64,000 nucleotides of DNA from Acorus gramineus (Eukaryota; Streptophyta; Magnoliopsida; Acorales; Acoraceae), in NCBI GenBank assembly GCA_030737835.1, contig CM060854.1, positions 16,968,859 through 17,032,858 on the forward strand, in the 5' to 3' direction. The notes under the pieces are model-generated. The model did no database searches. It was not told the origin of the DNA and saw only the letters and a list, made by a program, of their open reading frames with translations. Below are positions 17,017 through 54,644 of the stretch, piece after piece. Position numbers and translations under genes: made by a program. Each line of letters begins with the position of its first letter. The first letter of the stretch is position 1.

Positions 17017-19143
17017 ATGGCCGAAGCCAACACCAACGCCATTCCTGCAAGCGAAACGCCTCTTGTTGACCCTACTTCACTTCAACAAGGAGGTTTGGAA
17101 AATCTTTTCCAGGAGGCGCACGATGCAATACCAGTCACCACTCCTGGCATGCGCGTCTACACTAGGCGAGCTAGAGCTACGACATCAACCCTCGTTCCAG
17201 AAATGGAAGACGAAGGTACGATGAAGAATGCCAATAATGCAACAGCACAGGAGGTACATGACGATTCAAATGATCTTGGTGCTCATGTTCGAGTATCGCG
17301 TACCGAAGATGAAGTGGAGACTGTAATTCGTCGTAATTACATCTCCGATGACGACGCCAACGCCAGATCCGATGGGCTCACGCCGGGGGCAAGGCGCACT
17401 CACAACCATCCCTCGATGTCCAAACTCGAGGAGCAAATTAAGCAGCTCAATCAATCCATGGCGCAGATGGCTCAGATGATGATGGAGAAGGACCGTCAAA
17501 TTAGCATTCTTCTCCAAAAATCGGGCTCGAAGGATGATATCGGCGTCTCAAATCAAGTACCTGTGTCACCAAATGCTGTCCCTGCATCAACTTTGCCCAT
17601 TGAGCAATCGATGGTCATTCCTCCAACGACAGTTCTCGCGGCGTCTCAAGCTTCAGTTGCTCCGGCTATGACTGTACAACAATTACAGTCATTAGTGGCA
17701 GACATGGTCCGCACTCAAAATGGTGGATATGTCCAATCTTCAGCAGGATATTCAAAGCCGTACACTCAACGTATCCAGCAGCTCCGCTTTCCATCGGGAT
17801 ACCAACCACCAAAATTTCAGCATTTTGATGGGAAGGGCAATCCAAAACAACACATTGCCCATTTCATCGAAACCTGCAACAATGCTGGCACTTATGGCGA
17901 CTTGATGGTGAAGCAATTCGTGCGCTCCCTAAAGGGGAATGCATTCGATTGGTACGTCGATCTTTTGCCCGCATCAATCGACAGTTGGGAGGCTTTAGAA
18001 CGAGAATTTCTCACTCGCTTCTATAGCACTCGCCGTACTGTCAGCATGGTGGAGTTGGCTGCAGTTAAACAACGCAAGGAAGAATCGGTGATCGATTACA
18101 TTGACCGGTGGAGGAATCTTGCTCTTAATTCGCGAGATCGATTGTCAGAAACTTCAGCAATCGAAATGTGCATCCAAGGCATGCATTGGGGCCTTCTCTA
18201 TATTCTCAAGGGAATCAAACCTCATACCTTTGAAGAATTGGCTACTCGAGCGCACGATATGGAGATTAGCCTGGCCACTCACGGAGACTTCAAGCCGAAG
18301 GACTTTGCAAAAGATGACAAAGACAAAGCATCTGCGCCTAAGAAGAAGCATGTGAATGTCGTCAATATCGCGTCTTCCTCAAAACCATGGGGGACGAGTG
18401 GTGCAGCAGACAAAAGCAAACTTGATCCAGGCTCCTCTCATAAGAAAGCGCCACGAATGACCCTTGAAGAACTTAAAGCCAAGGTGTACCCTTTCCCAGA
18501 CTCCGAAGTCTCCACTATGTTCGATCAGTTACTCAAAGAGAAGATGATTGAACTCCCCGAGTCAAAGAGGCCTGAACAAGCAGATCGTGTCAATGACCTG
18601 CTATACTGCAAATATCATAGGGTAGTTAGCCACCCTATTGAGCAATGCTTCGTGTTCAAAGAGAAGGTGATGGATCTTGCACGTCAGGGAAAAATTGAGC
18701 TTGACTTGGGAGATGTCGCATCAGCAAATACAACATCAATCTCCTTCAGTTTCTTCTCACATGTTCAAATCCCAAAGGAGCTTGATCCACCAAAGCCATT
18801 GCCGACTTGTAATTGCACACATGCTCGTATGCGATATGATCCACATCTGGAACGCATTTCTCGGGATGAATATCAAGTTTCAGCATTCGGGAGGAATACA
18901 CACCGTCTCAAGATTGACGAAAGAACTCTTAAAGAAGAAGAATATTTTAGAAGGCTTTGCCCCAAATGCTCCATCTATCCTTGCTCGAGCTGCTTCAGGG
19001 GAGAGTTGTTTCCTCTTAACACTGATGTCACTCCTATGCCAGAACCAGAAGTACATCCTGCCCCTGATGGGTGGGGAGGCGAAGCATTGGAATCCCAAAC
19101 TCCAAGGGAGGGAGACCTTATCGACAAAGAAGATGGACTATGA
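17017..19143 (+). CDS. gag: Tat element Gag protein
   Basis: A 708-codon open frame starting 76 bp after the 5' LTR. A Met/Gln-rich coiled coil (about residues 130-170, SKLEEQIKQLNQSMAQMAQ) is followed by the Retrotrans_gag capsid domain (about 265-415, including FDGKGNPKQHIAHFIETC, FVRSLKGNAFDWYVDL and EREFLTRFYS). A Tat-style metal-site motif CKYHRVVSHPIEQC sits near residue 530, and a Cys-rich tail near 650 (CPKCSIYPCSSC). Gag assembles the cytoplasmic virus-like particle and binds element RNA. Its end overlaps the protease frame by about 73 bp in a different register. The frame is intact. Confidence 0.9.
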   Translation: MAEANTNAIPASETPLVDPTSLQQGGLENLFQEAHDAIPVTTPGMRVYTRRARATTSTLVPEMEDEGTMKNANNATAQEVHDDSNDLGAHVRVSRTEDEVETVIRRNYISDDDANARSDGLTPGARRTHNHPSMSKLEEQIKQLNQSMAQMAQMMMEKDRQISILLQKSGSKDDIGVSNQVPVSPNAVPASTLPIEQSMVIPPTTVLAASQASVAPAMTVQQLQSLVADMVRTQNGGYVQSSAGYSKPYTQRIQQLRFPSGYQPPKFQHFDGKGNPKQHIAHFIETCNNAGTYGDLMVKQFVRSLKGNAFDWYVDLLPASIDSWEALEREFLTRFYSTRRTVSMVELAAVKQRKEESVIDYIDRWRNLALNSRDRLSETSAIEMCIQGMHWGLLYILKGIKPHTFEELATRAHDMEISLATHGDFKPKDFAKDDKDKASAPKKKHVNVVNIASSSKPWGTSGAADKSKLDPGSSHKKAPRMTLEELKAKVYPFPDSEVSTMFDQLLKEKMIELPESKRPEQADRVNDLLYCKYHRVVSHPIEQCFVFKEKVMDLARQGKIELDLGDVASANTTSISFSFFSHVQIPKELDPPKPLPTCNCTHARMRYDPHLERISRDEYQVSAFGRNTHRLKIDERTLKEEEYFRRLCPKCSIYPCSSCFRGELFPLNTDVTPMPEPEVHPAPDGWGGEALESQTPREGDLIDKEDGL

Positions 19144-20405
19144 AGATGCGCAATGAGGAGTCGTGTTTCCCAGATCCTCAAGTAAGGAGGATGGCTACAA
19201 GGCAAATATCCAAAGCAACCCAGACAGACCCTGCAGATCTTATTGAAAAGAATCTCCCGGGTCCACCTACTCTGGCAAATTCTATTGAAGCCGACGCCCT
19301 TGAAACACTCCCTCCTTCCAGTTCTTCTTCAACCTCTCCCACGGAGACTTGCTATATGGTGGAGGTCCATGATTCAGAAATAAAGAGCGTTGAAATGCTC
19401 CCTACTACCTCTAGCTTGGCGGAGTCTTCCAAAGTTGACCATTCCGATGATGAAAAGGCCCTCGTCAGCCCACAAGCTACTGAAGATCATTCTGCTTCCT
19501 ACCAGGAGGCTATTCTTCATCTACCTCTCATTGAAGCGTTGCATCTCTCAGAAGAAGCACGCCTCACCATGGCAGCAGTCTTGACCAACCCTGATGATTA
19601 TAAGAGAGAATCTGAAGCCGATCAAGAAGAGGGGGCATCACCGTCTTGCAACTTCACCATATCTTTCTCTGATGAAGACCTGCAACTTGGAGTCCGCCTT
19701 CACAATAGGCCCCTCTATGTGTCAGGATACATCAGAGAGAAGCAAATAACTCGCATATTGCTAGATTGTGGTTCTGCTGTCAACATCATGCCTGTCCAGA
19801 CCATGGAACAATTAGGCATTACAACCAGTGAGCTTTCTCAAAGCCAATTGGTTATTCAAGGGTTCAACCAAGCCGGACAATCTACTATTGGTATCATACG
19901 CCTAAAGCTCTCAATTGGCGAACTTGATACAATGATTCTCTTCCATGTCATTGATTGTAGAACTTCATATCGTCTTCTATTGGGGAGGCCATGGCTACAT
20001 GAAAATGGGGTAGTCGTCTCTACTTGGCACCAATGCTTCAAATATTATAAAGACGGTGTGGAAAAATGTGTCGCTGCTGACAGCAAACCCTTCACCAAAA
20101 CAGAAATACATCTTGCTGATGCTAAATTCTATCAAGCAACGGGTGTAGTCGCCGAAGCATTGCCGATGAAAACTCCACACGGCATCAAGAAAAATGTTGA
20201 AGAGCAAACTACATCTACTTCTAACAGAAAGATGCGAATCAAGCATGTACGGGGAATCAATCCACATCCTCCAACCAATGCTCAAGTTGGCCCTGTGTTA
20301 CGCCTCATTTCCAAAGCGCATCGTACATCAGAACAACCACTATTCACATCAGCAGCTACGAAATTGCAGTCATTATTCACCGAAGCTGACATTGTCGCAC
20401 TTTAA
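19071..20405 (+). CDS. Tat element protease region
   Basis: A 444-codon frame overlapping the end of gag in the -1 register. The aspartic protease core is at about residues 215-310: LYVSGYIREKQITRILLDCGSAVNIMP (active Asp in LLDCGSA; Cys replaces the common Thr or Ser), VIQGFNQAG, and LLGRPWLHENGVVVSTWHQC. It matures the Gag and Pol proteins. Which start is used is unknown: the overlap suggests -1 frameshifting from gag, while the ATG at 19071 or 19146 would allow independent starts. The frame ends at TAA (20403-20405), two codons before the pol ATG and in the same register. Confidence 0.8.
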   Translation: MGRRSIGIPNSKGGRPYRQRRWTMKMRNEESCFPDPQVRRMATRQISKATQTDPADLIEKNLPGPPTLANSIEADALETLPPSSSSSTSPTETCYMVEVHDSEIKSVEMLPTTSSLAESSKVDHSDDEKALVSPQATEDHSASYQEAILHLPLIEALHLSEEARLTMAAVLTNPDDYKRESEADQEEGASPSCNFTISFSDEDLQLGVRLHNRPLYVSGYIREKQITRILLDCGSAVNIMPVQTMEQLGITTSELSQSQLVIQGFNQAGQSTIGIIRLKLSIGELDTMILFHVIDCRTSYRLLLGRPWLHENGVVVSTWHQCFKYYKDGVEKCVAADSKPFTKTEIHLADAKFYQATGVVAEALPMKTPHGIKKNVEEQTTSTSNRKMRIKHVRGINPHPPTNAQVGPVLRLISKAHRTSEQPLFTSAATKLQSLFTEADIVAL

Positions 20406-20411
20406 CAAAAA

Positions 20412-23400
20412 ATGATTTTGCCCTTGCATGCCTTGACACCTACATCAGTGACAATTCCTCCATTGTCAGGCTTCGTACCAGAAGGTCATTGGAGCAAGAA
20501 GTCGTCAAAATTGCTACAAAAGGCGGGCTTCCACATTAGCGATATGGCATCTCTAGGGACGCTTCCCCCAAAAACAATCCCGTGCGGGATGACCAAGACT
20601 CAAGCTCACCTCATTCATGCCGGAGAAAAGATGCCTATATCCAGACGTGGCCTGGGCTTTGTGCCAACTCCAATCGTCGTTAAGTCAGCCATCAGAGGAG
20701 ACCTCTCCTCTAATCATATTCAAGTGGAAATGACGAACAATTCTTCCACGTCCGAGTCGCAATCACCTCAAGTTAATCCAACATCGGCGTCCATCAACAA
20801 TACTCAGTCAAAATCCAGGCGTACAAGAAGACGAGGCAGACAAGCACAACATCAAGCTAGGCTTGGGGGGCATGATGAAGTCATTCAAGAGCTTCATTCT
20901 GTACAACAAAACCCCAAACAAAGGGTTACTTCAGTATCCCGAAGGCCTGAAAAGTTAAAGACGAAATCCAAGGTTGTCCATGCTCCATCGACTCGACAGT
21001 CAGTATTCAGTCGTTTGGGACCGATCGCTCCCATTTCGAAGACAACCATGGAGCCCACTCGCCCCACCCGACAACGTCGCCGACTTGGGGGCAATCACAA
21101 AGAGGGTCGACAACTTACGACATCCTCAAATAGCCCTATGTATCCGTTCTGCTCGAAGCTTACTACCATTCAAGTGTCTGCATCGAATGATCCTTCTTGT
21201 GTCAAGCCAAGGACAGTAGTCATCACTACTCGTCCACCTTCTGATGCCCCTATGGATGATTCTTCTACATCCATTGTTGTCTCCGTCAACCACAATTCCA
21301 TTCATGACGAGCCAAACATTGAGAATACTTCTCATTCGGACGACGAATTGCTGGACGCACAGCCTGATCTTGATGAAAGAGAACGATCCACCGTAGATGA
21401 CTTAAAAGAAGTCAATTTGGGCACCGAAGAAGATCCACGCCCAACCTTCCTTAGTGCACTTCTAGCTCTAGAAGAAGAAACTGCATATGTTAAACTTCTT
21501 CAGGAGTACAAAGACGTCTTTGCATGGTCTTATAAAGAGATGCCAGGATTGGATCCTAAAATTGCTGTACACCAACTTGCTGTTCGGCATGGCGCTAGCC
21601 CTATTAAACAAGGGCAAAGACGCTACCGACCCGAGTTAATCCCACAAATCGAGAATGAAGTCAACAAGCTAATTGAAGCCGGCTTCATCCGAGAGGTCAA
21701 ATATCCTACTTGGATCTCGAGCATCGTACCAGTAGAAAAGAAGAATGGACAAATCAGGATATGCGTAGACTTCAGAGATCTGAACAATGCGTGTCCTAAA
21801 GATGATTTTCCATTGCCAATTACTGAACTTATGGTGGATGCGACAACTGGTCATGAAGCGCTATCATTCATGGATGGATCTTCTGGCTATAATCAGATTC
21901 GAATGGCACCCAAAGATGAAGAACTCACAGCTTTTCGCACTCCAAAAGGCATCTATTGCTATAAAGTGATGCCATTTGGCTTGAAGAACGCAGGTGCTAC
22001 TTACCAGCGCGCCATGCAAAAGATCTTCGATGATATTCTCCACCAAACGGTTGAATGTTACGTTGATGATCTCGTTGTGAAGTCTAAACAAAGGACCTCT
22101 CACCTTGATGATCTTCGACATATTTTCAATCGTCTACGAAGATATCAACTTCGAATGAACCCGCTCAAATGCGCATTTGGAGTCACTTCGGGGAAATTTC
22201 TTGGCTTCATTGTTAGGCATCGTGGCATTGAGATAGATCAATCCAAAATTGATGCTGTTCTCAACATGCCCGAACCCAAATCATTACATGACCTTAGAAG
22301 TCTACAAGGTCGCTTGGCTTACATCAGAAGGTTTATTTCAAATTTGGCTGGAAGGTGTCACCCCTTTAGCCGACTCATGAAGAAGGATACCATCTTCAAG
22401 TGGGATGCTACTTGCCAAAACGCCCTCAATAGCATCAAACAATATTTATTAAAGCCACCAGTTCTATCTGCTCCAGTTCCTGGTGTACCCCTTATTCTAT
22501 ATATTAGTGCTCAAGAACACTCTATCGGGGCACTCCTTGCTCAAGAAAATCATATTGGCAAAGAAGTGGCGTGCTATTATCTCAGTCGTACTCTTATTGG
22601 TGCCGAATTAAACTATTCGCCAATTGAGAAGATGTGTCTTGCACTCATTTTCACCACGAAGAAACTTCGGCATTACATGCTCGCACACACGATCAGACTT
22701 ATTTCTAAAGCAGATCCCCTCAAGTATATTATGTCCAGGCCAGTTCTCTCAGGACGGCTAGCAAAATGGGCTCTCCTTCTGAGTGAGTTTGAAATCATCT
22801 TTGTCTCTCAAAAGGCTATAAAAGGACAAGTATTGGCCGACTTTCTAGCAGATTATCCAATCCCTACTGAATGGGAATTGACTGAAAATTTTCCTGACGA
22901 AGAAGTGCTTTCTATTGACATTGTTCCATCTTGGAAGATGTTCTTTGACGGTGCTGCAAGACGTGAAGCGGCAGGGGCAGGAATCGTCTTTGTCACACCT
23001 AAAGATGAAGTTCTCCCATTTTCTTTCGTCCTATCCGAACCATGTTCTAATAATATGGCAGAATATCAAGCATTAATTATCGGCCTCGAACTCGCTGTCG
23101 ACATGGGTATTCGAGAACTCCAAATTCATGGTGATTCAAAGCTTGTTATTTGTCAGATTATGGGGGAATATCAAGTTAATAAAGAAGACTTGATACCGTA
23201 TTATACAAGGGCATTGACATTGTTCCATATTATTGATGATGCCACTATTCAACATGTTCCAAGGGGCCTCAACCGACAAGCAGATGCTCTGGCAAATTTG
23301 GCTACTACTCTTACTCTCCCGGACACTAACCGCTTGGTCATCCCTCTTTGTCGCAAGTGGGTGGTTGTCACAGATGATACAAGCAATCAAATTCCAGTAC

Positions 23401-24632
23401 AAACAGATGTGGTCCATGTATTTATGACAGAAGAGCAAGATTGGAGGCAACCAATGATAAATTATCTTGCTCACGGCAGGCTTCCAGATGACGCAAAACA
23501 CAAAATTGATATTCGTCGTCGTGCATCGAGGTTCCTTCATTTTAACGACGAGTTATATCGTCGTGGTTATGATGGCGTCTTGATGAGATGTTTAAGGCAA
23601 GAAGAAGCAGAAACAGCTCTCAAAGAAGCACATTCTGGTATATGTGGCACGCATCAATCTGGGCCAAAGCTTCATCTTCATATCAAAAGAATGGGTTATT
23701 ATTGGCCTACTATGGTTAAAGACTGCATGAAATTTTTAAAAGGGTGTCAAGCTTGCCAAATCCATGGGGACTATATTCATCAGCCTCTGGAACCTCTACA
23801 TCCTACTGTTGCTTCATGGGCATTCAATAGTTGGGGACTCGACATAGTCGGACCCCTCCCGAAGTCATCTAAACAACATTGCTATATCCTGGCCGCAACA
23901 GATTACTTCTCTAAATGGGATGAAGCGATTCCTCTCAAAGAAGTCAATCGGAATTCGGTCATTAACTTTATCCAAGAAAATATTAGTTTTCGATATGGCA
24001 TTCCTCACTTCATTGTGACAGACAATGGTAAACTGTTCAAAAATGTTTCCATGGACCAATTTTGTGCCAAGTTCAAGATCATACAAAGGCGCTCGATGAT
24101 GTACAATGCTCCAGCCAATGGATTAGCGGAAGCCTTCAACAAGACCTTGTGTAAACTACTACAAAAGGTAGTTTCCAAGTCGAAAAAGGATTGGCATGAA
24201 CGTATAGGCGAAGTTCTTTGGGCTTACCGTACATCATTCCGAACTCCTACACAAGCAACCCCATATTCTCTTGTATACGGAGTAGAAACCATTCTTCCTC
24301 TCGGGCTTCAAATTCCTTTATTAAGAATCACTATTCAAGAAGGGCTTACTCAAGATGACAACGTCCAGCTTCGTCTAACGGAACTGGAAGCTTTAGATGA
24401 AAAGCGACTTGAAGCACAACAACGCATCAAATGCTACCAGGCACGTCTTTCTCGCGCATTCAATAAGAGAGTGCGTCCTCACTCCTTCCAAAAGGACGAT
24501 CTTGTGTTGGCAGTTAAACGGCCTATCATCATATCCCATAGAGCAGGGAAGAAATTCGATGCTAAATGGGATGGCCAGCATATTATCAACGAAGTCCACA
24601 CCAATGGTGCTTTACCTATTGACTACTCCTGA
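20412..24632 (+). CDS. pol: Tat element Pol: RT, RNase H, archaeal-type RNase H, integrase
   Basis: A 1406-codon uninterrupted frame. The N-terminal ~330 residues are low complexity. RT runs about 370-600: VEKKNGQIRICVDFRDLN, FMDGSSGYNQIRMAP, and the catalytic YVDD at 550-553. The connection and RNase H follow (about 650-800), then a second RNase H (about 840-970: KMFFDGAARREAAGAGIV, NNMAEYQALIIGLE, HGDSKLV, NRQADALANLA). Integrase has its HHCC site near 1076-1116 (EAHSGICGTH, GCQACQ) and DDE residues in SWGLDIVGP (~1143), VTDNGK (~1203) and NGLAEAFNK (~1240). No chromodomain. It copies element RNA into DNA and inserts it. A stop separates it from the protease frame. Confidence 0.9.
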   Translation: MILPLHALTPTSVTIPPLSGFVPEGHWSKKSSKLLQKAGFHISDMASLGTLPPKTIPCGMTKTQAHLIHAGEKMPISRRGLGFVPTPIVVKSAIRGDLSSNHIQVEMTNNSSTSESQSPQVNPTSASINNTQSKSRRTRRRGRQAQHQARLGGHDEVIQELHSVQQNPKQRVTSVSRRPEKLKTKSKVVHAPSTRQSVFSRLGPIAPISKTTMEPTRPTRQRRRLGGNHKEGRQLTTSSNSPMYPFCSKLTTIQVSASNDPSCVKPRTVVITTRPPSDAPMDDSSTSIVVSVNHNSIHDEPNIENTSHSDDELLDAQPDLDERERSTVDDLKEVNLGTEEDPRPTFLSALLALEEETAYVKLLQEYKDVFAWSYKEMPGLDPKIAVHQLAVRHGASPIKQGQRRYRPELIPQIENEVNKLIEAGFIREVKYPTWISSIVPVEKKNGQIRICVDFRDLNNACPKDDFPLPITELMVDATTGHEALSFMDGSSGYNQIRMAPKDEELTAFRTPKGIYCYKVMPFGLKNAGATYQRAMQKIFDDILHQTVECYVDDLVVKSKQRTSHLDDLRHIFNRLRRYQLRMNPLKCAFGVTSGKFLGFIVRHRGIEIDQSKIDAVLNMPEPKSLHDLRSLQGRLAYIRRFISNLAGRCHPFSRLMKKDTIFKWDATCQNALNSIKQYLLKPPVLSAPVPGVPLILYISAQEHSIGALLAQENHIGKEVACYYLSRTLIGAELNYSPIEKMCLALIFTTKKLRHYMLAHTIRLISKADPLKYIMSRPVLSGRLAKWALLLSEFEIIFVSQKAIKGQVLADFLADYPIPTEWELTENFPDEEVLSIDIVPSWKMFFDGAARREAAGAGIVFVTPKDEVLPFSFVLSEPCSNNMAEYQALIIGLELAVDMGIRELQIHGDSKLVICQIMGEYQVNKEDLIPYYTRALTLFHIIDDATIQHVPRGLNRQADALANLATTLTLPDTNRLVIPLCRKWVVVTDDTSNQIPVQTDVVHVFMTEEQDWRQPMINYLAHGRLPDDAKHKIDIRRRASRFLHFNDELYRRGYDGVLMRCLRQEEAETALKEAHSGICGTHQSGPKLHLHIKRMGYYWPTMVKDCMKFLKGCQACQIHGDYIHQPLEPLHPTVASWAFNSWGLDIVGPLPKSSKQHCYILAATDYFSKWDEAIPLKEVNRNSVINFIQENISFRYGIPHFIVTDNGKLFKNVSMDQFCAKFKIIQRRSMMYNAPANGLAEAFNKTLCKLLQKVVSKSKKDWHERIGEVLWAYRTSFRTPTQATPYSLVYGVETILPLGLQIPLLRITIQEGLTQDDNVQLRLTELEALDEKRLEAQQRIKCYQARLSRAFNKRVRPHSFQKDDLVLAVKRPIIISHRAGKKFDAKWDGQHIINEVHTNGALPIDYS

Positions 24633-43299: not shown

Positions 43300-46200
43300 T
43301 GTATTTCCAATTTGGTATTTGGATTTGATTTTGTTAAAATCCAAGATGAAGAGGTTTAAATATGATTTTATTATGAGATGTCCAGTTTTGAGTTAGCTTT
43401 CGTACAGAAGTGGAATTAGATCAACTGGATTCTTGTAGTAAAAGTTATGGGTATTTTTCCAAGTATACCCCGGGGATGGAAATTCTGGCAGTAGCCCAGC
43501 TCGATGTTTAGCTCTAATTTAGGAACAGCTGGAGAGCTTATTTGATCTAGGCATGAACATGAAAGTTGTAGATAATCTTCTTGGCTTTCCAACGGAATTG
43601 GAATTGTGCAATTCGGAGCTACATCGAGGAAGTTATGGCTGTTCCAGTGAAGCATGCGCAGAATTTCTAGTCAAAGGGCGACTTAGTAATTTCCCTCCTT
43701 AGATATTTGTGTGATAAATATCTCTCTCTCTCTTCCCTTCTCACTTCCACGCCACTAGAATTTCTGGTCTCTCTTTCTCTCCTTCAAAGCCCCACCAAGT
43801 GTTTGGTTTATTTACTCAAAGAGAAGAAGAGAAGGAGGAGGTGAAGGAAGAAGAGAAGGTTGGTTTATGTGTTGTTGTTGTTTGTTCCCCTCTCATGCTC
43901 TCATATGTTGTTCTCCCCCCCCCCAACCTGTTTTTCGCAGCCAAGGAGGAGGCTGAGGAGAGCTGAGGTGGAGGTGGTGGTTGAGGTCGTCACGGGTGCG
44001 TCGAGGGCCCCCGAATCTCCCCCTTTCGTTCCCCCTCCAAGGTGAGCTCCTCCCCTTCTTTTCTTGGTTTTCTTTGGCTTAAGGGGATGTTGGGGAGGTC
44101 ATGCATGCTATGCATAGGGGTTAGGGTGTGTGTGAGGGGTTGGGAAGGGTTAAAATGGGGTTAGGGGGGGGGGGGAGCTGGGCGCAGTCTGCGCGCGTGC
44201 GCGCGCAGGCGGGCGCGCAGACTCGTGCAGGCGCGTCCGCGGGTGCGCGCAGGCGCTGGCGAGAGCGAGAGTGCGCGCGAGTGCGCGCGGGCGCGCGCGG
44301 GCAGTGCGCCTGGGCATGCGCCTGGGCGCGGGGCTGGGGACCAGTGCGCGCGCGCGGGTGCGTGCGCGTGCTGGGGAGTGCGCAGGGTGCTGCGCGCTGG
44401 GCTGGACGCGCGGTGTGCGCGAGCGCGCTCGAGCGTGCGCGCCCATGCGGCAGCGCGTCTGGGCGCACGGGCGGGCGCACGGCAGTGCGCCGATGGTGTT
44501 GGGGTGCGTGCGTGCGTGCGCATTCGTGCGTGCGCGTGCGGGGGGCCATGCGTGTGGCTGCCCAAGGGTTCGGGTAGGTGTCGGGGCACTCGGACTCGCG
44601 TGCGTACGTGCGTGCTCGCATGCGTGCGAGTCCGTATGCATGCTTGTCCGAGTGTTGGGTATTTCTAATGATTTCTATGTGTAAATTGTGTTGTTTCTCA
44701 ACAGTTGGATGCCCCTACCTTGCAGATCTCGTCGAATGGGATGCGCGAGGTCCCGGGTCGTAAGGTGAGTGGTTTGATTCCAATCCCCCCCCCCCCTCTC
44801 TCTAGGGATGCGCTCGACCCGCATAGACGCCTGTCGCGCATCGATGGGGCCCCCTAGCTATAATATGTAAATAATATGCATGCCACCCTAGACTTTGTAT
44901 GCTAGGGATATGCACCCTTATATCATGTATAGCGGCCTATGCATGTTTAGTCACCATGTCCTTTTGATTGGAAGGCCCCGACCTATGCATGTTTCCCATT
45001 TAGTTTAATTTATTTAAATCAAATGTGAGCATATTGTGATAAGCATGCCTTAGAGAATATTATAACCTTGTTGTTATAATATATGTTTCCCCGCATCTTA
45101 GTTATGCGCCCTGGAGGAATTCTTGAGAATTCATGGCATTAGTAGTGTTAGAAATCGTTGTCGACGGATCCAACAGGATCGTACGCGCGTGAGTAGGCTG
45201 TCTTCTCCTTTTGGTTGGATCCGATGTAGGGACTCCCCAGCGTTAGATAGGCTATCCTGATAGAGGGCTCCCATCTGTAGGTACCTCCGATGCGTCGGAC
45301 TGTGCTGATCGTGGGAGTATACCAGGCAAGCTACGGAGTGGAGGAGAGGCTACCGGGTGAACCAGGGGTGGAGAGCAGCCTAGTCTGAAAAGACCCATGA
45401 CACCCATAAAGGGTGAGCGTGGGCTGGGTCGGCGATGTTACTACCCACTAGCTTGTGTAGTTACTCCCGTTTAGGGACTATGACTACTTTAAGGTTAATA
45501 TGAGTGTGTTGGTTGTTGTTATGCATGTGTGTGATATCTCGATAAGCGAGTATCGAGAGTGGTTGTTTTCCTTTGGGTTTCGCTTTGCGAACATGGGATC
45601 GTTCTCCCCTTCGTTGGATCCGATGTAGGAACTCCCCGGCGTTGGCTGTACCTGACAGAGGGCTCCCGTCCGTAGGTACCTCCGATGTGTCGGACAGTAC
45701 GGATGGTGGGAGTGGACTAGGTGGAGGCCACGAGGGTGGGAAAGGGCTACTGGCGGATCAAGGGTGTAGAGCGGTAAGTTGAGGAGATCGGGTTGTAGAT
45801 ACTACCCGGGAGAGGGTTAATGAATGATGTCGTGAGCGTGGAATCGTTCTCCCCTTCGTTGGATCCGATGTAGGAACTCCCCGGCGTTGGCTATACCTGT
45901 CAGAGGACTAGGCAGAGGCCACGAGGGTGGGAGAGGCTACCGGTGGACCAGGGGTGTAGAGCAGTCTAAGTCTCTTCCCAAAGTCCCAAGATGTCTCCTT
46001 TCAGGAGTGAGGGTGTGGATGAGGCGAAGACACGTCGCCTCGTGACCCATTCATTGTTCGACCGTTCCCATAGTTGTTGGGTCCGGTCTCGTGATCGATG
46101 TTGAAGGACATCGTTGGGCGATTGTCTAGATGTAGATGATCCAGTAGTGTTGAGTAGACCAGTAAATCCGGGTCTCTTCGACCGACGGTATGGTCTCTAG

Positions 46201-46825
46201 ACCAGTAAATCCGGGTCTCTTCGACCGACGATATGGTCTCTCCCCATAAGTCCCAAAAGACTCCCTCCGGGAGTGAGGGTGGGGGTGAGGTTGGTCGCGC
46301 CGCCGCGTGACCCTGTTATCCATTGGGTTTCTACCCATGTTTTCCTTGAAAGGAAATTGATTTATGTATCGAACTGTAGAATGGTGATTGGTTTCCAGCC
46401 ACTCACTGAGCTTGTAGCTCACCCCTCGCATACTGTTTCTTTTTAGGGGCAGTGTTGGGCGTGGAGCTGGAGCTTCCTATGGCATGGTCTTATGGGCGTG
46501 GAGCGTTCTGCCGGCGGGTGGCGAGTGCGAGGCTGTCAGCATTCCTAGAGTCATTTTATGCTTTGTAAATCGTGCATGTGGCACAGGTTGTATTTTCTTT
46601 GGTCTAGACTTGGCTTTCACGGGACATTGATTGTGTATTCGGGTCTGTAATAATGTTTTTGATTTACAAACATTGTTATATATTATGCTTCCGCTTTTCA
46701 GTCAGTTATCTTTATCTTGCTTTGTCACCTTGTGTATTGTTGTTGGTGTCCTTATTGACCTCAGGTATTGATAGCTGATATTATATTTATTTTGCCACGT
46801 CTCGGGGACGCCTGGGGCGTGACAC
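43300..46825 (+). mobile_element. Chromovirus-type LTR A (5' limit uncertain)
   Basis: Ends CTGGGGCGTGACA at 46825 and carries the order of blocks seen in the LTRs at 47151 and 49615: CACCCTAGACTTTG(T/C)ATG (44883), GTTCCCCGCATCTTAG/GCGCCCTGGAGGAATTC (45086-45122), repeated CCCTTCGTTGGATCCGATGT modules (about 45215, 45610, 45855), and CACTGAGC...GTAGCTCACCCCTCGCATA (46402). No coding sense. Its U3 part (43330-43700) differs from the other copies, so it is a separate subfamily. The exact TG start was not found. Confidence 0.6.
44042..44725 (+). other. Putative LTR intron in LTR A (GC-rich)
   Basis: Donor CCAAG/GTGAGCTCC, acceptor CTACCTTGCAG/ATCTCG. The 684 bp between contain an extremely GC-rich GTGCGCGC-type stretch (44160-44560). 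The position matches 47893-48705 in LTR C and the point of absence at 50202/50203 in LTR D. Confidence 0.55.
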
Positions 46826-47150
46826 TCATGCTCCTTTTTCCCTTGATTTCAGCCAAGAAGGGCTGGTGGAGAGGCTGAGGAGGGGTGGTAGTGGTGGTGG
46901 TGGTTGAGGTGATTGTGGGTGCATCCGAGAGCCATGCATCTCCCCCTTCCCTTCCCCTCCATTGGTAAGTCTTTCTTCCTTCTTTTCCTTGGTTTCCTTG
47001 TCATAGGGGCTGTTAGGGGAGTCATGCATGCTAAATAATTAGGTTAGGGTGTGTGAGAAGGGTTAGGTAGGGGTTAAACTTGGCTGGGCGCCCGCGCGGG
47101 TCTGTCCGCGCTCGCATGCTGGCACAGGCGGGCGAGTGGGCGTGGGTGTG
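46826..47150 (+). mobile_element. Truncated chromovirus LTR fragment B
   Basis: Aligns with LTR A from about 43891 onward (CTCATGCTC, GCCAAG(A/G)AGG, GGTGGTGGTTGAGGT, ATCTCCCCCTT, then a donor-like TTG/GTAAGTC at 46965) and runs into the same GC-rich sequence before LTR C interrupts it at 47151. Confidence 0.6.
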
Positions 47151-47556
47151 TGTTATATATGTGTCAGTTTTAACCTTCTTGTAACCGTTGGGACATTTTG
47201 GCAGTTTTTCAATTTTTTTCATTTTCGATCGCAACCGCTAAAATTTTGGCCTGTTAGCTATCGCCCTGAGATTGAGGACTCCGATTGAAAATGTAACTGC
47301 ATATTATGTGTCCTGGTGCCATTCCAAGCCGCTCACGAAAATTTCATCGAATTCCGGTAACGTTTCAGAATTTCGCAGTTCCGGGGCGTATCCGGGTTTT
47401 GACCGAGCGAGAAGTCATTGGGAGAGTTGACTTGGTCAAAGTGGGCCCATAGACTTGGTCAACCCCTTTTGTTTTTATTTGTGGTTGGATTGACCCAAGT
47501 CAAAGCCCACTTAAGTCACCTAATCCTAGTTAACCCTAATTTAAGTGAGGTTGACC

Positions 47557-47563
47557 TATATAA
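47557..47563 (+). promoter_or_regulatory. TATA box in chromovirus LTR C
   Basis: CTATATAAG in LTR C; LTR D has CTATATAAAGG at 49877-49887 in the matching place. Predicted RNA start about 30 bp downstream, which puts the putative LTR intron about 300 nt into the transcript. Confidence 0.5.
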
Positions 47564-47892
47564 GTGAGATCTAAAAAGTTGCCCCCCACTATTCATCTTC
47601 TTCTCCACTTGATTTCTCTCTCCCCCTCTCTCTTTTTCTTGGGTTTGAGCCACCTAGAGTGCTTGAAATCAAAAACTCAAAGCATAGAAAGGTTAGATCT
47701 CATCCCGATCTATCCACCGGTGGTCTCGGATTCGAGTTCTGACGAGTTTGACCCCCTCTAACACCCTCTTTTCTCCTCTGATTTCAGCCCCTTTGAAGGT
47801 TGAAAGAGTTCTTGGTGGTGGAGAGCTTTGGGGAGGTGTTTCGGTGCACGAAGAGCTCCCGGTCTTTCCTTCCCTTCCTTTCCTCTCCCAGG

Positions 47893-48705
47893 GTAAGCCT
47901 TCTTTCCCTTCTTTTCCATGTTTAGATGCTTGTTTAGGTGGTGTTTTGGGTGCTGGTGGATGTGGGTGGTGGTTGAGGGCGGTTGGTGGCCATTGGTGGC
48001 CGGTGAGGGGTGGTAGGATGGCTTGGGCGGGCTGGCAGGCTGTCCCGGGTAGGCTGGCAGGCAGGCAGCGCAGCAGGCGGAGCAGATGGCAGGGCGCGCG
48101 CGCGGGTGGAGCTGGGTGCTGGCGCTGGGCGCTGGGCGCGGGTGCTGGGTGCTGGAGGGCGCAGTCGGGCGCGCAGTCGCGCGCGGGTGCGTGCGCGCGG
48201 GTGCGGGCGGAGTGGTCGCGCAGGTGCGCGCGGGGGTGTGCGCGCGCGCGGTCGCGCGGGGGCGTGCGCGCGCGCGGGCAGGGCACCTGGGCACTGCGCC
48301 GGGGTGCGGGGCAGGGCGCCTGGGCATGCGCCTGGGCGCGGAGCTGGGGACGAGTGCGTGCTCGTGCTGGGGCGTGCGCGCAGTGCGCGCGGGGGCGCGC
48401 TGGGCTGGACGCGCGGTGCGCGCGCGAGCGTGCGGTAGTGTGTCGGGGAGCGAGGGCAGGCGCGCGGCAGTGCGCCGATGGTGCCGGCGTGCGTGCGTGC
48501 GTGCGCATTCGTGCGTGCGTGCGTGCACATTCGTGCGTGCTGGTGGCTATGCGAATGGCTGCCCGGGGGTTCGGGATTGAGTTGGGGTGCTCGGGCTCGC
48601 GTGCGTACAGGCCGTATGTACGCTTGTCCGAGTGTTGGGTATTTTAATGTATTTTTGGATTTAATTGTGTAGTTTACTCACCGATTTAATTATCGTATCT
48701 TGCAG
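47893..48705 (+). other. Putative LTR intron in LTR C, 813 bp, GC-rich
   Basis: Donor CTCCCAGG/GTAAGCC, acceptor TATCTTGCAG/ATCTTGACGG. The interior has the 47930-48010 G-rich part and a 48080-48540 GTGCGCGC/GCGGGTGCG array. Homologous LTR D reads straight from its CTCCCCTTG to ATCTTGACGG, missing this segment at the predicted splice boundary. Confidence 0.6.
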
Positions 48706-49614
48706 ATCTTGACGGTCGGTCGCGCGACGACCCGACTACCGATGAGTGGGACAATCCAACCCAGTAGGGAGGCGTTATATGCACTTGGGCGTATACCGTC
48801 CTCCCATGGGGTACCATGGATTTATATTAACTGTTGTAATGTGTAATCCATGCGATCATGATAAAATGTAGTATGCAAGCTACCCTAGACTTTGTATGTT
48901 AGGGACTTGCACCCTTAGGATATGTGTAAGAGCCATGCATCATGTCACCCTGTTCCCATGCTAGGAAGCCTCGGCCTATGCATGCGTCCTATTAGTTTGA
49001 TTTATTAAATTAAATGCTAACATGCCTTGTATAATATTATAGGGAGGGGCCTTGCGAGGTCAACATTAAGACCCGGGCTAGGGTGCTCCGTGTTCCTTGT
49101 TTGGTTGTCGGGATGTCCTGTATCGGGACCTCATGCTGCCCTCCCAAGGTTTCTTGTCCCAATAATATTATAACTCTTGTTAATAATTATTATTATATCC
49201 CTTGTTAACAATTATTATTATATATGTTCCCCGCATCTTGGTTATGCGCCCTGGAGGAATTCTGAAGAATTCATGACATTAGAGTTGTTGAGATGTGTTG
49301 TCTGCGGATCCGAGTGGATCATATGCAATGGATAGGATGTTCTGTTCCCTTCGTTGGATCCGTGTAGAGACCACCCCGGCGTTGGAAAGGCTGTCCCGTG
49401 CAAGGGCTCCCATCAGTAGGCACCTCCTGATTTAGGACGGACTGTGCTGAATGTGGGGGTGGCCAAACGGCCTACGGAGTGGGGAGAGACTATCGGTGGA
49501 CCAAGGGCGACCATCAGCCTAGTCAGTCCCAATATCCTATGTCACCATATTGAGGGGTGAGGGTGAGGGATGTGGTGGGTCGGCGATGTAGCGACCCACT
49601 GGATTGTAAGTCCC

Positions 49615-51921
49615 TGTTATATATGTGTCACTTTTAACCTGCTGGTAACCGTTGGAGCGTTCTGGCAGTTTTTCATTTTTTTTTGTTTTCGATCGGAACC
49701 GCTAATTTTTGGACTGTTAGCTATCGTCCTGAGTTAGAGGACTCCGATTGGAAATCTAACTGCATATTTGGTGTCCTGGTGCCATTTTAGGCCTCTCACG
49801 AAAATTTCATCGAATTCCGGTAACGTTTCCGAAATTTCACAGTTTCAGGGCGTATCCGGGTATTTTAAGTGACTCGCTATATAAAGGAGATCTAAAATCT
49901 TGTTGGCACTATTCATCATCTTCCTCCTTGAGCTCTCTCTCTCTCCTTCTCCATTTTTCTTGATTTTGAGCCCCTTGGAGGGCTTGAAACAAAAAACCTA
50001 AAGCATAGGAAGTGTAGATCGGGTCCCGATCTACACCCTGGTGCTTTCAAATCCGGATTCCGACGAGTTTTGCCCCTCCATCCCCCCTCTCTTCTTCCCT
50101 GATTTGGACCATTTCGGAGGTGGGAGTAGATCCGGGCGTTGGAAGCCTTTTGGGAGAGGTTTCGGTGCGCGGAGAGCAACCGGACTTCGCTTCCTCCCCT
50201 TGATCTTGACGGACGGTCGCGCGATGACCCAGACTTCGGTGAGTGGGACAATCCAACCCAGTAGGGAGGCGTTATACGCATTTGGGCGTATACCGACCTC
50301 TCCTGGGGCACCATGGATTATATTAACCTGTTGTAATGTATATTTCATGCGAGCATGATTTAAATGTAGAATGCATGCTACCCTAGACTTTGCATGTTAG
50401 GGACTTGCACCCTTAGGATATGTGTATGAGCCATGCACCATGTCCCCTGTTCTCATGCTAGGAAGCCTTGGCCTATGCATGTGTCCTACTAGTTTATTTA
50501 TTAAATTAACTGCTAGTAAATGTTTAATTGCATGCCTTAGATAATATTATAATGAGGGGCCTTGCGAGGTCAACATTGAGACCCGGGTTAGGGTACTCCG
50601 TGTTCCTTGTTTGGTTGTCGGGATGTCCTGTATCGGGACCTCATGCTGCCCTCCCAAGGTTCTCGTCCCAATAATATTACATCTCTAGTTGATAATTAAG
50701 GATTTACCCATGGTATGATTATTAGCATATTAGTGAATATTATAGGGGAGGGGCCTTGCGAGGACAGCGGTGAGACCCGGGTTAGGGTACTCCGTGTTCC
50801 TTGTTTGGTTGTCGGGGTGTCCTATATCGGGAACTCACGCTGCCCTCCCGAGTTTCTTTCCCCCAATGATATTCCACCCTTGCTAATTATTGTGTATGTT
50901 CCCCGCATCGTGGTTATGCGCCCTGGAGGAATTCTGAGGAATTCATGACATTAGAATTGTAGAGATGTGTAGTCGGCGGATCCGAGTGGATCATATGCGT
51001 ATGGATAGGCTGTTCTGTCCCCTTCGTTGGATCCGGTAGAGACTGCCCCAGCGTTAGAAAGGTCGTCCCTTCCAAGGGTTCCCATCAGTAGGCGCCTCCT
51101 GATTTGGTTTCGGACTGGGCCGAAGTTGTGGGTGAAAGCCAAGCGGCCTACGGAGTGGAGGAGAGACTATCGGTGGACCAAGGGTGACCAACAGCCTAGT
51201 CAGTCCCAAAATCCTATGTCACCCATTGAAGGGTGAGGGTGAGGGTGTAGTGGGTTGGCGATGAGCGACCCACTGGAGTTGTGAATGGATGATAATCAGT
51301 CCCAAAATCCTATGTCACCCATTGAAGGGTGAGGGTGAGGGTGTAGTGGGTTGGTGATTGAGCGACCCACTAGTTTGAGTATTTGTTACCATTTTGTGGT
51401 TGTTAATAAGAGATTGTGGATTATTAAGATCTGGATAGTGGTCAATATTGTCTGTGATGCATGGGTTGTGTTGTTCACTGAGCGTGTGGCTCACCCCTCG
51501 CATATGTTTTTCCCCAGTTGCCACTGAGCCTGAGCTGGAGCCGGAGCAGCAGTTGGAGCTTTCCGAGGGATTCCTTCAGTAGCGGAGCAGCGCCACGTTC
51601 CGCGAGTGCCAGAGACTATCAGCATCCCTTCTTGACTGTATGTATTTTATTTCCGTGCTTGGCACGCGTTTGTATATATTCAGTTGTATTGGTGTATATT
51701 GGCTCTCACAGGACATATGATTGAGTATCGAGTCTGTAGTATGTTTATTTACAGATTCAGTCTTTTGCTTCCACATTTGGTGTATATATCATGTCAGCCT
51801 CTTTGTTGTCTGTGTGTCATTCTGGTTGTTTGTGTATGATATATTATTGACCTCCTGTGTAGATTCTGATATTTTATATACACTTGCCGCGTCCCGGGGA
51901 CGGCCGCCCTGGGGCGTGACA
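49615..51921 (+). mobile_element. Solo LTR D, 2.31 kb, intron-less form, with 5-bp target duplication
   Basis: Starts TGTTATATATGTGTCAC, ends GGGGCGTGACA, and is flanked by GTCCC at 49610-49614 and 51922-51926 within LTR C. Blocks follow the LTR C order. A ~185 bp module (GGGGCCTTGCGAGG...ACCCGGGTTAGGG...GTTTGGTTGTCGGG) is duplicated near 50555 and 50742, and a GGGTGAGGGTGAGGGTG module near 51230 and 51328. No coding sense. Confidence 0.9.
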
Positions 51922-52555
51922 GTCCCAATATCCTTTGTCACCTATTGAGGGGTGAGGGTTTGGGTGTAGTGGGTTGGCGATAGCGACCCACTGGTTTTGA
52001 GTTGTCAGTCCCAATATCCTTTGTCACCTATTGAGGGGTGAGGGTGAGGGTGTAGTGGGTTGGCGGTAGCGACCCACTGGATTGTTTAGTTGTTGCCATT
52101 TTGTGGCTTGAGTAATGAGATTGTGGATAATAATATCTGGTTGTGGTTAATATAAGCTGTGATGCATGGGTTGTGCTGTTCACTGAGCGTGTGGCTCACC
52201 TCTCGCATAATATTTTTCTCCAGTGTCATCTGAGTCGGATCTGGAGGAAGAGCTCCCCGAGGGACTTCATCAGTAGCGGAGTAGCGCCACGTCCCGCGAG
52301 TATCAGAGGCTATCAGCATCCCTTGTGATTGTATGTATTTATTCCGTGCTTGGGCACGCGTCTGTGTATTATTGGATGTCTTTGTATATATTGGCTCTCA
52401 CAGGACAGTTGATTATGTATCGAATCTGTAATATGTTTTGGATTACAGATTCAGTCTTTTAGCTTTCGCTTTTGGTGTATATATTATGTCAGCCCTGCTT
52501 TTGTTGTCTTTGTTGTCGTTTTAGCTGTTGGGTGAGTATGTTATTGAACTCCTGG

Positions 52556-53035
52556 TCGAACCCTGCAGAGATTCGGAGCTTCCTGGGCTTGGCGGGTTAT
52601 TGCGGGAGGTTTGTCGAGGGTTTCTCGAAGATAGCTGTACCTCCTAACCGCCTCGCTTGGAAGGATGTCCGGTTCGAACGGTCCCCGTCTTGCGAGGAGA
52701 GCTTCCTGGAGTTTAAGCGAAGGCTCACCTCAGCGCCAGTTCTTACCCTTCCGTCTAGGAGGGGTGGGTTCGCAGGTTGCTCTGAGGCATCGCGGTTGGG
52801 TGTGTGTTGCGTCCATGATCCTGCTCACGTCATCCCGTTCGAGCCGCTCGTCTTCGAGCCGGACTTGTCATTCATGGAGCAGCCGATTGAGATCATGGAC
52901 CGCCGCGAGAAAGGGCTCCGCACCAAGACCGTCCAGTTGGTCAAGGTGCGATGGCAACACCGTTCCGGTGCCGAGGCCCCTTGAGAGCTCGAGGACGCCT
53001 TGCGTGACGCGTATCCGCATCTCTTCCCTTCCTAG
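52556..53035 (+). pseudogene. Chromovirus Pol remnant: RT piece fused to chromodomain tail
   Basis: Residues NPAEIRSFLGLAGYCGRFVE...WKDVRFERSPSCEESFLEFKRRLTSAPVLTLP correspond to the RT connection. Near 52790-52815 the sequence passes to DPAHVIPFEPLVFEPDLSFMEQPIEIMDRREKGLRTKTVQLVKVRWQHRS, the integrase C-terminus and chromodomain of Tekay/Del elements. A stop at 52982 lies where the chromodomain Trp is usual (ATWELEEDM type). RNase H and the integrase core are missing. Dead. Confidence 0.8.
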
Positions 53036-53070
53036 ATGTTTTTGTATTATTTTGAGGACAAAATTTCCTA

Positions 53071-53206
53071 AGGGGGAAGAATGTTATATATGTGTCACTT
53101 TTAACCTTCTGGTAACCGTTGGGACATTCTGGCAGTTTTTTTATTTTTTCATTTTTCGATCGGAACCGCTAAAATTTCAAGCTGTTAGCTATCGCCCTGA
53201 GATTAG
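53071..53206 (+). repeat. Polypurine tract and truncated 3' LTR (E)
   Basis: AGGGGGAAGA at 53071-53080 directly precedes TGTTATATATGTGTCACTT at 53082. The LTR matches C and D for about 125 bp and stops at CTGAGATT, where the 340 bp dispersed repeat begins. Confidence 0.8.
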
Positions 53207-53784: not shown

Positions 53785-54644
53785 GGGTGTGTCTATCCCC
53801 ACCAAGCATTTTCCTTAACCCACCATAAAAAATCGGTGTTTGGCTATTCCCACCAATCTAGGTCGACCGAACTTAGTCGCCATTTCAGGTTTTGGGCGAT
53901 CGGACTTGGTCGTCATTTTAGGTTTTAGGCGACCGAACTTAGTCGTCATTTTAGGTTTTTGACGACCGAAATTGGTCGGACATGATTCAAAATTATATCT
54001 ACCTATTTTTGTAAACAAATAAATTTTTGAGTTTATCCATCATATTCTACATTTATTCTTTTATCCAAACAACAGCTAAGGGACTGAAAAAAATATAAGT
54101 ATGTATACTTTCAATTACTTTAAATTTTTATAGAAAAATATCTTATTAGACAAATATATATCATTTTAAAGCTTCGTTTGAATTCGTAGTTAAGCATATT
54201 CTTTGTTTGAAAACAAAAAAACATACCAGTTGATCCAAACATTTTATATTTGGCTTTTGAAAATTTGTCCGTCACTTATGTAAAAAAAAAATTGTTCTTA
54301 TGTTCTACATTTAAGAATAATGATTGATTCTCCCTACATTACAACTCAGACTTGAAGTGGCATGAAGGATCCTAGAAGAATACATATCATGGGATTAGGT
54401 TTTCAAGAAAAAAAATTTATAAACTTTATCACAAACCCTGTTCGACCAAGTTCGGTCGCCCGAAACCTGAAATGGGGACCAAGTTAGGTCGCCCAAAATA
54501 TGAAATGACTATTAAGTTCGGTCGCCCAAAACTTAATGTGACGACCAAATTTGGTCGAACTGGTCGAATCGGTGGGAATAGAAAAAACACCTTTTTTTAT
54601 TATTGGTGGGTTAAGAGAAATGCTTGGTGGGGATAGACGCGCCC
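53785..54644. mobile_element. Foldback/MULE-like inverted-repeat element, ~860 bp
   Basis: Left end GGGTGTGTCTATCCCCACCA; reverse complement of the right end GGGCGCGTCTATCCCCACCA; the match continues through AAGCATTT and TTAACCCACCA. Each arm holds three or four ~38 bp subterminal repeats with the core GGTCG(C/T)C and TTTCAGGTTTT (53870-53970 and 54450-54560). The middle is AT-rich. Flanks ATATTCTTA (53776-53784) and ATATTCTTG (54645-54653) look like a 9-bp target duplication with one change, as in Mutator-type insertions. It ends about 80 bp past the stop codon of the receptor kinase gene. Confidence 0.8.

Follow-up and report, generated by a model that had tools for sequence, protein, structure and literature searches.

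The 64,000-nt window analysed here, a stretch of the Acorus gramineus genome (contig CM060854.1), contains at 43.4-53.2 kb several related long terminal repeats (LTRs) of a retrotransposon family, nested in one another. Some of these LTRs carry a block that resembles an intron, and others lack it; this apparent LTR intron is our subject. All of the features lie on the forward strand. LTR A occupies 43440..46824; its right end reads TGACA at 46824, its left end was not located, and 43440 is a guess. The end of A abuts the start of LTR fragment B (46825..47150), which has the donor GTAAGT at 46965 and is cut off where LTR C starts; the first letters of B, CTCATGCTC, recur at 43896 in A. LTR C begins TGTTATATATG and is split by LTR D into a left, intron-bearing part (47151..49614) and a right part (51922..52554) that is truncated before the LTR end. 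D is an intronless solo LTR of 2307 nt (49615..51921) with TG...CA ends, inserted in C between the two copies of its own GTCCC duplication (49610-49614 and 51922-51926). A pol remnant followed by a polypurine tract (52555..53081) and, by sequence comparison, a 3' LTR stub of the family of C and D (53082..53204) complete the nest.

The block in C measures 813 nt (47893..48705, 69% GC) and has the edges GTAAGC and TTGCAG; A holds a homologous block of 684 nt (44042..44725, 68% GC), and D has none. The sequence-only reading had described these three facts correctly, including the insertion of D into C, and had taken the block for a real intron and D for a descendant of a spliced RNA. By sequence comparison and splice-site scores, C divides into exon 1, the leader 5' of the donor (47590..47892, with a start placed about 30 nt after the TATA-like box CTATATAAG), intron I with its T-rich edges, and exon 2 onward (48706..49614). 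In C, by eye, ~330 nt separate the donor from the TATA-like box upstream of it, which reads CTATATAAAG in D. In D, exon 1 (49925..50202, with a presumed start) ends in ...CCCCTTG and is followed directly by exon 2, ATCTTGACGG... (50203..50238). No other donor in the left part of C scores as high as the GT of the block or higher, the same holds for its acceptor AG, and D has no donor with a score of at least 4. Of all deletions of at least 20 nt in the left part of C, a fraction of 3.3e-5, or 1.1e-3 with looser scores, would reach both sites within the mapping tolerances, which were fixed after the data had been seen. A small upstream intron ending CTGATTTCAG was also considered and rejected, its donor being weak and its AG, by eye, absent in D.

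Many further copies carry the block. The host genome assembly of 398.6 Mb was searched with the exon-2 side of D, and the best 40 of 4089 candidates, a sample biased to D-like copies, were scored; three of them, D included, are intronless. The matches start at base 3 of the query in 36 of the 40, at base 4 in one and at base 1 in three (D among them), and a start at base 3 or 4 means that the match begins at, or one base past, the acceptor edge. Among the 39 further copies that were fetched, 33 have the block, two (L009 and L036) lack it and four were not scorable; exon 1 is absent from the stretches of L015, L024, L030 and L044, one of which contains N, and is partial in L028, which left 32 intron copies for the tree around the join. 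Exon 1 of the block copies ends in CCCCTTG or CCCCTCG, except in L018 (CCTTCCTTG) and L032 (CCCTTCG). The block starts with GT in 32 of 33 copies (L045 has GA) and ends with AG in 31 of 33 (L013 has AC and L025 CG), and every one of the 33 has the motif CTCAC, which resembles the branch-point consensus, 19-40 nt before the block end. Its length varies from 642 to 1259 nt with both edges constant. T accounts for 35-48% of the two terminal stretches of 60 nt and for 14-17% of the sequence between them; in C itself, it makes up 48% of the first 60 nt and 46% of the last 80 nt, and the middle is 76% GC. The fixed GT...AG ends, the branch-like motif and the T-rich 3' end are those of a U2-type (GT-AG) intron. 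The intron middles of C (47953-48625) and A (44180-44655), both ~76% GC, have a CpG observed/expected ratio of 1.2-1.4, which is CpG-rich for a plant repeat. Exact LTR patterns gave no match in collections of viral contigs and genome contigs.

The copies without the block share a single join. A search with the junction of D, from which the best 40 of 2186 places were scored and which is biased to intronless copies, yielded 27 places that run across the join and 13 that stop at the final G of exon 1; none stops elsewhere. The join CCCCTTG|ATCTTG is present in all 23 intronless copies that were read (20 of the 24 newly found, together with D, L009 and L036), and none of them has an indel within 20 nt of it; several have substitutions there. 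Four of the 27 intronless places are unread, and in three of these (C65:1990304, C55:3798514 and C54:738849) the match is interrupted at some point by short gaps. Whether the block is always missing at its GT and AG was a check that the sequence-only reading had proposed, and in the part of the family covered here the answer is one exact join throughout.

For D and C taken alone this exactness is less obvious. The plain alignment of D with C opens a gap at 47877-48704, whose start falls 16 nt before the GT, and the CT-rich end of exon 1 is 11 nt shorter in D than in C (39 versus 50 nt; 47 nt in A and B). Relative to C, the block thus has an exact 3' edge and a 5' edge with a blur of 11-16 nt. 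In closer genomic copies, however, exon 1 ends CCTCCCCTTG|GTAAGCC where D reads CCTCCCCTTG|ATCTTG. The join of D thus equals the exon ends of the copies near it, and the 11-nt mismatch reflects the divergence of C alone. The claim that the block is missing exactly at the splice boundary stands against the closer copies and, against C, holds for the 3' edge only. C and D are 87% identical, and the nearest of 20 intron-bearing LTRs compared is 97% identical to D; with closer copies in existence, we rule out C as the direct parent. D had been called the spliced sister of C: its spliced origin is supported, but it does not come from spliced C, which is a divergent cousin.

The intronless copies include independent insertions and complete elements. 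The solo LTRs D, L009 and L036 (the latter two on C11 and C1) are flanked by perfect 5-bp duplications, GTCCC, CCTAG and AGTAC, respectively; L036 starts with TA, not TG. Intronless LTRs form five pairs, with both members on one strand at a distance of 5.1-7.5 kb; C54:729583 and C54:738849, at a distance of 9266, were not regarded as an element. Perfect duplications at the element ends were found for C2 (ACCAT), C78 (TTATG), C65 (AGATT) and C59 (TTTCT, which holds only with the second of two possible starts). In C2, C78 and C59 both LTRs are intronless and both joins were read. One join each was read in C65 and C54, for which the 5' LTR end and the right end of the 3' LTR, respectively, were not found; C65 is probably a fourth element with the block absent from both LTRs. 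In all four elements for which the end of the 5' LTR was found (C2, C78, C54 and C59), this LTR is followed by the primer-site string TGGTATCAGAGCC, and all five elements have a purine tract ahead of the 3' LTR. C2, C78 and C59 display the full set of LTR-retrotransposon features (TG...CA LTRs, primer site, polypurine tract and 5-bp duplication), C59 again only with its second possible start. Among nine candidate LTR pairs, five lack the block from both LTRs, four have it in both and none is mixed. The ends of the intron-bearing pairs were checked in C10 only, where atggc stands on both outer sides.

Downstream of intron I the LTRs hold a second conserved donor-acceptor pair, which is a candidate second intron. 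In A (44765..46446) its donor, AAG|GTGAGT at 44765, ranks 2 of 3460 GT and its acceptor, at 46446, ranks 8 of 3993 AG in the window. In D the candidate (50239..51517, GTGAGT...CCCCAG) is retained, with a donor rank of 59/3460 and an acceptor rank of 335/3993. The donor letters are constant in the 23 rows compared and mutated in C (GATGAG) and L044. In 21 of 23 LTRs the acceptor stretch reads GCTCACC...CCCCAG|TTGCC or differs little from it; L059 has GCTCAC only, and the stretch was looked for in L057 and nothing was found. A CTCAC motif lies ~25 nt before the acceptor. No loss of this pair was found: an exact exon 2-exon 3 pattern had no matches in the host genome, at a pattern stringency without a positive control.

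In reverse transcription the R-U5 portion of both LTRs derives from the 5' end of the RNA. A spliced leader would for this reason yield an element with two intronless LTRs whose joins are exact to the splice sites, an argument already made in the sequence-only reading and one that C2, C78 and C59, with their target duplications, fit. The exact joins and the two-LTR elements together support a real intron in this LTR and the descent of D from a spliced RNA. We consider it very probable that the block is a spliceosomal GT-AG intron in the 5' leader and that it was lost repeatedly through reverse transcription of spliced RNA. Intron I would lie within the transcribed leader of a Ty3/gypsy-type element. 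Much of the genomic RNA that is turned into DNA would be unspliced, passing the intron on, and spliced RNA would sometimes be packaged and reverse transcribed. The strong-stop DNA made from such a template would carry the spliced leader, leaving both new LTRs intronless at the splice sites. D would be one copy of this origin, now reduced to a solo LTR; loss would have happened several times, with some intronless copies multiplying later. That the losses come from splicing and not from another equally precise process is our inference, and so is the placement of the intron with respect to R and U5.

A deletion that followed insertion would remove the block from only one of the two LTRs in each event, and its ends should be ragged. 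An ordinary DNA deletion by end joining or slippage, or a jump of the reverse transcriptase over a GC-rich stretch, with edges that look like splice sites by coincidence, would suit the GC-rich interior of the block, its length difference of 600 nt and the three further large gaps in the alignment of C and D (C is longer by 140 nt in one, D by 20 and 145 nt in the others). We nevertheless regard it as extremely improbable, since a nucleotide-exact join is common to 23 of 23 copies of differing backgrounds and the block gap is the only one of the four large gaps that meets a high-scoring acceptor. Moreover, the break regions in C share only one word of at least 4 nt, a 4-mer away from the edges, and the block edges pair poorly in C: in a control with GC-rich stretches among its sequences, 495 of 500 random pairs proved at least as stable. 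The poor pairing speaks against a hairpin skipped by the reverse transcriptase, and we ruled out this bypass on that ground. The opposite direction, in which the intronless LTR is ancestral and the intron or an insertion entered later, draws some support from the tree counts, which alone do not separate gain from loss. It is very unlikely, however: the divergent LTRs A and C hold a homologous block and B has the donor, so that the direction is read as loss, and it is implausible that one site should have gained the same sequence repeatedly. The edges of the block in C and A bear no target duplication, which also rules out the block as an insertion.

A single splicing event, after which recombination of co-packaged RNAs or gene conversion spread the intronless LTR to many backgrounds, is a more serious rival, though still an unlikely one. 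In a tree of the LTR sequence outside the intron, D, L009 and L036 fall in three places and require three changes, and their union in one clade is rejected (p-AU, from the approximately unbiased test, 1.6e-10). Full LTRs had been obtained for 20 of the 33 intron copies fetched, chosen in part because they resemble the intronless ones, and the tree used 19 of them; L057 was kept in the identity comparison and left out of the tree as a long branch. Around the join, a tree of 55 rows (23 intronless and 32 with the intron) requires eight changes, six of them forced, and rejects one clade at p-AU 7e-6; it contains intronless clades of 11 and 5 rows, which suggests that some intronless copies went on to multiply. 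The 182 nt upstream of the join likewise reject one clade for the three solo LTRs (p 0.009), no letter is common to two of these LTRs yet absent from all 19 intron copies, and the three differ within 25 nt of the join. The block-less copies are thus not one clade, and the losses look to be several and recurrent, in a number that is subject to recombination.

A number of observations weigh against this account of repeated loss by splicing. Near the join, the evidence for independent losses is weaker. No pair among D, L009 and L036 is rejected by the same 182 nt, and on the downstream side 339 nt are compatible with a single clade of the three (p 0.42; two changes suffice) and group D with L009 (support 92/78). 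The three share minority letters at -364, -316 and +28 (found in 6, 9 and 3 of 19 intron copies, respectively), the last of which, an A, favours a single origin. Since the LTRs are mosaics, the original losses may have been fewer, with recombination distributing them. The count of no mixed pairs is biased, in that 76 places were examined and mates outside them would be missed. Plant introns have been described as U-rich (PMC3735527, in the passages cited), but here only the intron edges are T-rich, against a middle of ~76% GC in C, and the block as a whole is not U-rich relative to the exons. The acceptor of intron I is weak in A (rank 290/3993). If the candidate second intron is real, its retention means that the templates were only partly spliced. 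Finally, splicing itself is inferred from DNA, as the exact loss of the block.

The family looks non-autonomous, with most of pol gone from the one internal region that was read. This region, of 2826 nt, belongs to L112, a two-LTR intronless element elsewhere, and holds shorter frames and the same pol remnant as in the window; over 528 columns, the window remnant (52555-53081) is 84.8% identical to part of this region. One of its frames contains a CX2CX4HX4C string, which by eye we take to be gag-like. By coordinates, the internal regions measure ~2.9 kb in C78 and C54 and 5.0 kb in C59. The best three matches of the short pol remnant in the window are Acorus gramineus proteins (69-76%), and the remnant had no match in Pfam. 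The family may belong to the Tekay/Del chromovirus clade. Elsewhere in the window, another Ty3/gypsy element at 17017-24632 has separate frames for gag (Retrotrans_gag) and pol (RVT_1, RNase H and integrase), and at 53785-54644 inverted 33-nt repeats lie inside a longer inverted repeat. A search of the window against Rfam gave no match.

As an addition to the splicing account rather than an alternative, the intron might serve the life cycle of the element: the spliced leader RNA, shorter and with fewer upstream ATGs, would be the messenger and the unspliced RNA the genome, and some property of the intron or its splicing would favour the unspliced form in packaging. We offer this tentatively, with more doubt than confidence. 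Intron I has 11 ATGs in C and 15 in A, the candidate intron II has 37-44, and exon 1 of C and D has none. The intron is kept in A, C and 33 of the 35 scorable fetched copies even though each spliced template would erase it, and BARE is described as separating the translated and the copied pools of RNA (PMC3735527). On the other hand, the scarcity of ATGs in exon 1 is within chance when compared with shuffled sequences (P 0.10-0.12), and exon 1 of A has three; we dropped this depletion as evidence. At 25-30% divergence the donor score would survive drift with a chance of 11-17% per comparison, which makes its persistence only moderately unlikely, and the multiplication of some intronless copies means that the intron is not essential.

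Foamy virus acceptors lie outside the LTR; in the Acorus family donor and acceptor stand in one LTR. As far as the cited passages go, plant LTR elements are generally without introns, with Ogre and EVADE as exceptions (2025 review, PMC12786077). Ogre, a Ty3/gypsy element of plants from the Tat lineage, has an intron that undergoes partial splicing (PMC6317226), but that intron is internal, between gag-pro and pol, whereas the one described here lies within the LTR, so that a spliced template alters both LTRs. In the Ty1/copia elements BARE1 and EVADE, alternative splicing separates the roles of the RNAs (PMC3735527, PMC12786077), and two sunflower copia elements have spliced isoforms (PMC7730604). 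For BARE, the spliced RNA is said to be kept out of replication by necessity, and its DNA copies could not be amplified (PMC3735527); in contrast, we find 27 intronless places. A donor inside the LTR, downstream of the promoter, is also known from foamy viruses, whose main donor lies in R (PMC3694450). Splice sites have likewise been predicted in the very long 5' leader of Diaspora of soybean, whose authors suggested that an altered element could arise when improperly spliced RNA is packaged; the passages cited show no splicing or loss, and according to this 2005 paper introns upstream of gag had not been reported (PMC1142308). RNAs started in the ta-TRIM solo LTRs of Echinococcus are spliced as well, but into downstream sequence rather than within the LTR (PMC4558846). 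The loss of an intron via an RNA intermediate is familiar from yeast Ty (PMC12786077), where the intron was an artificial reporter; the Acorus case would be a natural LTR intron. Our search of open-licence papers, in the portions it covered, returned no report of an intron inside an LTR, and the text of PMC3059260 contains no intron or splice terms.

Spliced RNAs of plant LTR retrotransposons are thus already known, with introns that are internal in the published passages, and one paper found no genomic copies of its spliced RNA. What the Acorus family adds is that, within single elements, both LTRs appear to preserve in the genome itself the trace of a spliced template that was reverse transcribed, which turns the strictness with which unspliced templates are chosen into a matter of counting. 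It also poses a puzzle, in that an intron erased by every spliced template survives across diverged LTRs. One possible answer, which we hold with reserve, is that the LTR intron acts as a self-erasing switch between an unspliced genome and a spliced messenger, each new intronless LTR lineage being the fossil of a packaging error. If the never-lost second donor-acceptor pair were an intron too, the genome would keep a natural record of which RNA forms were copied.

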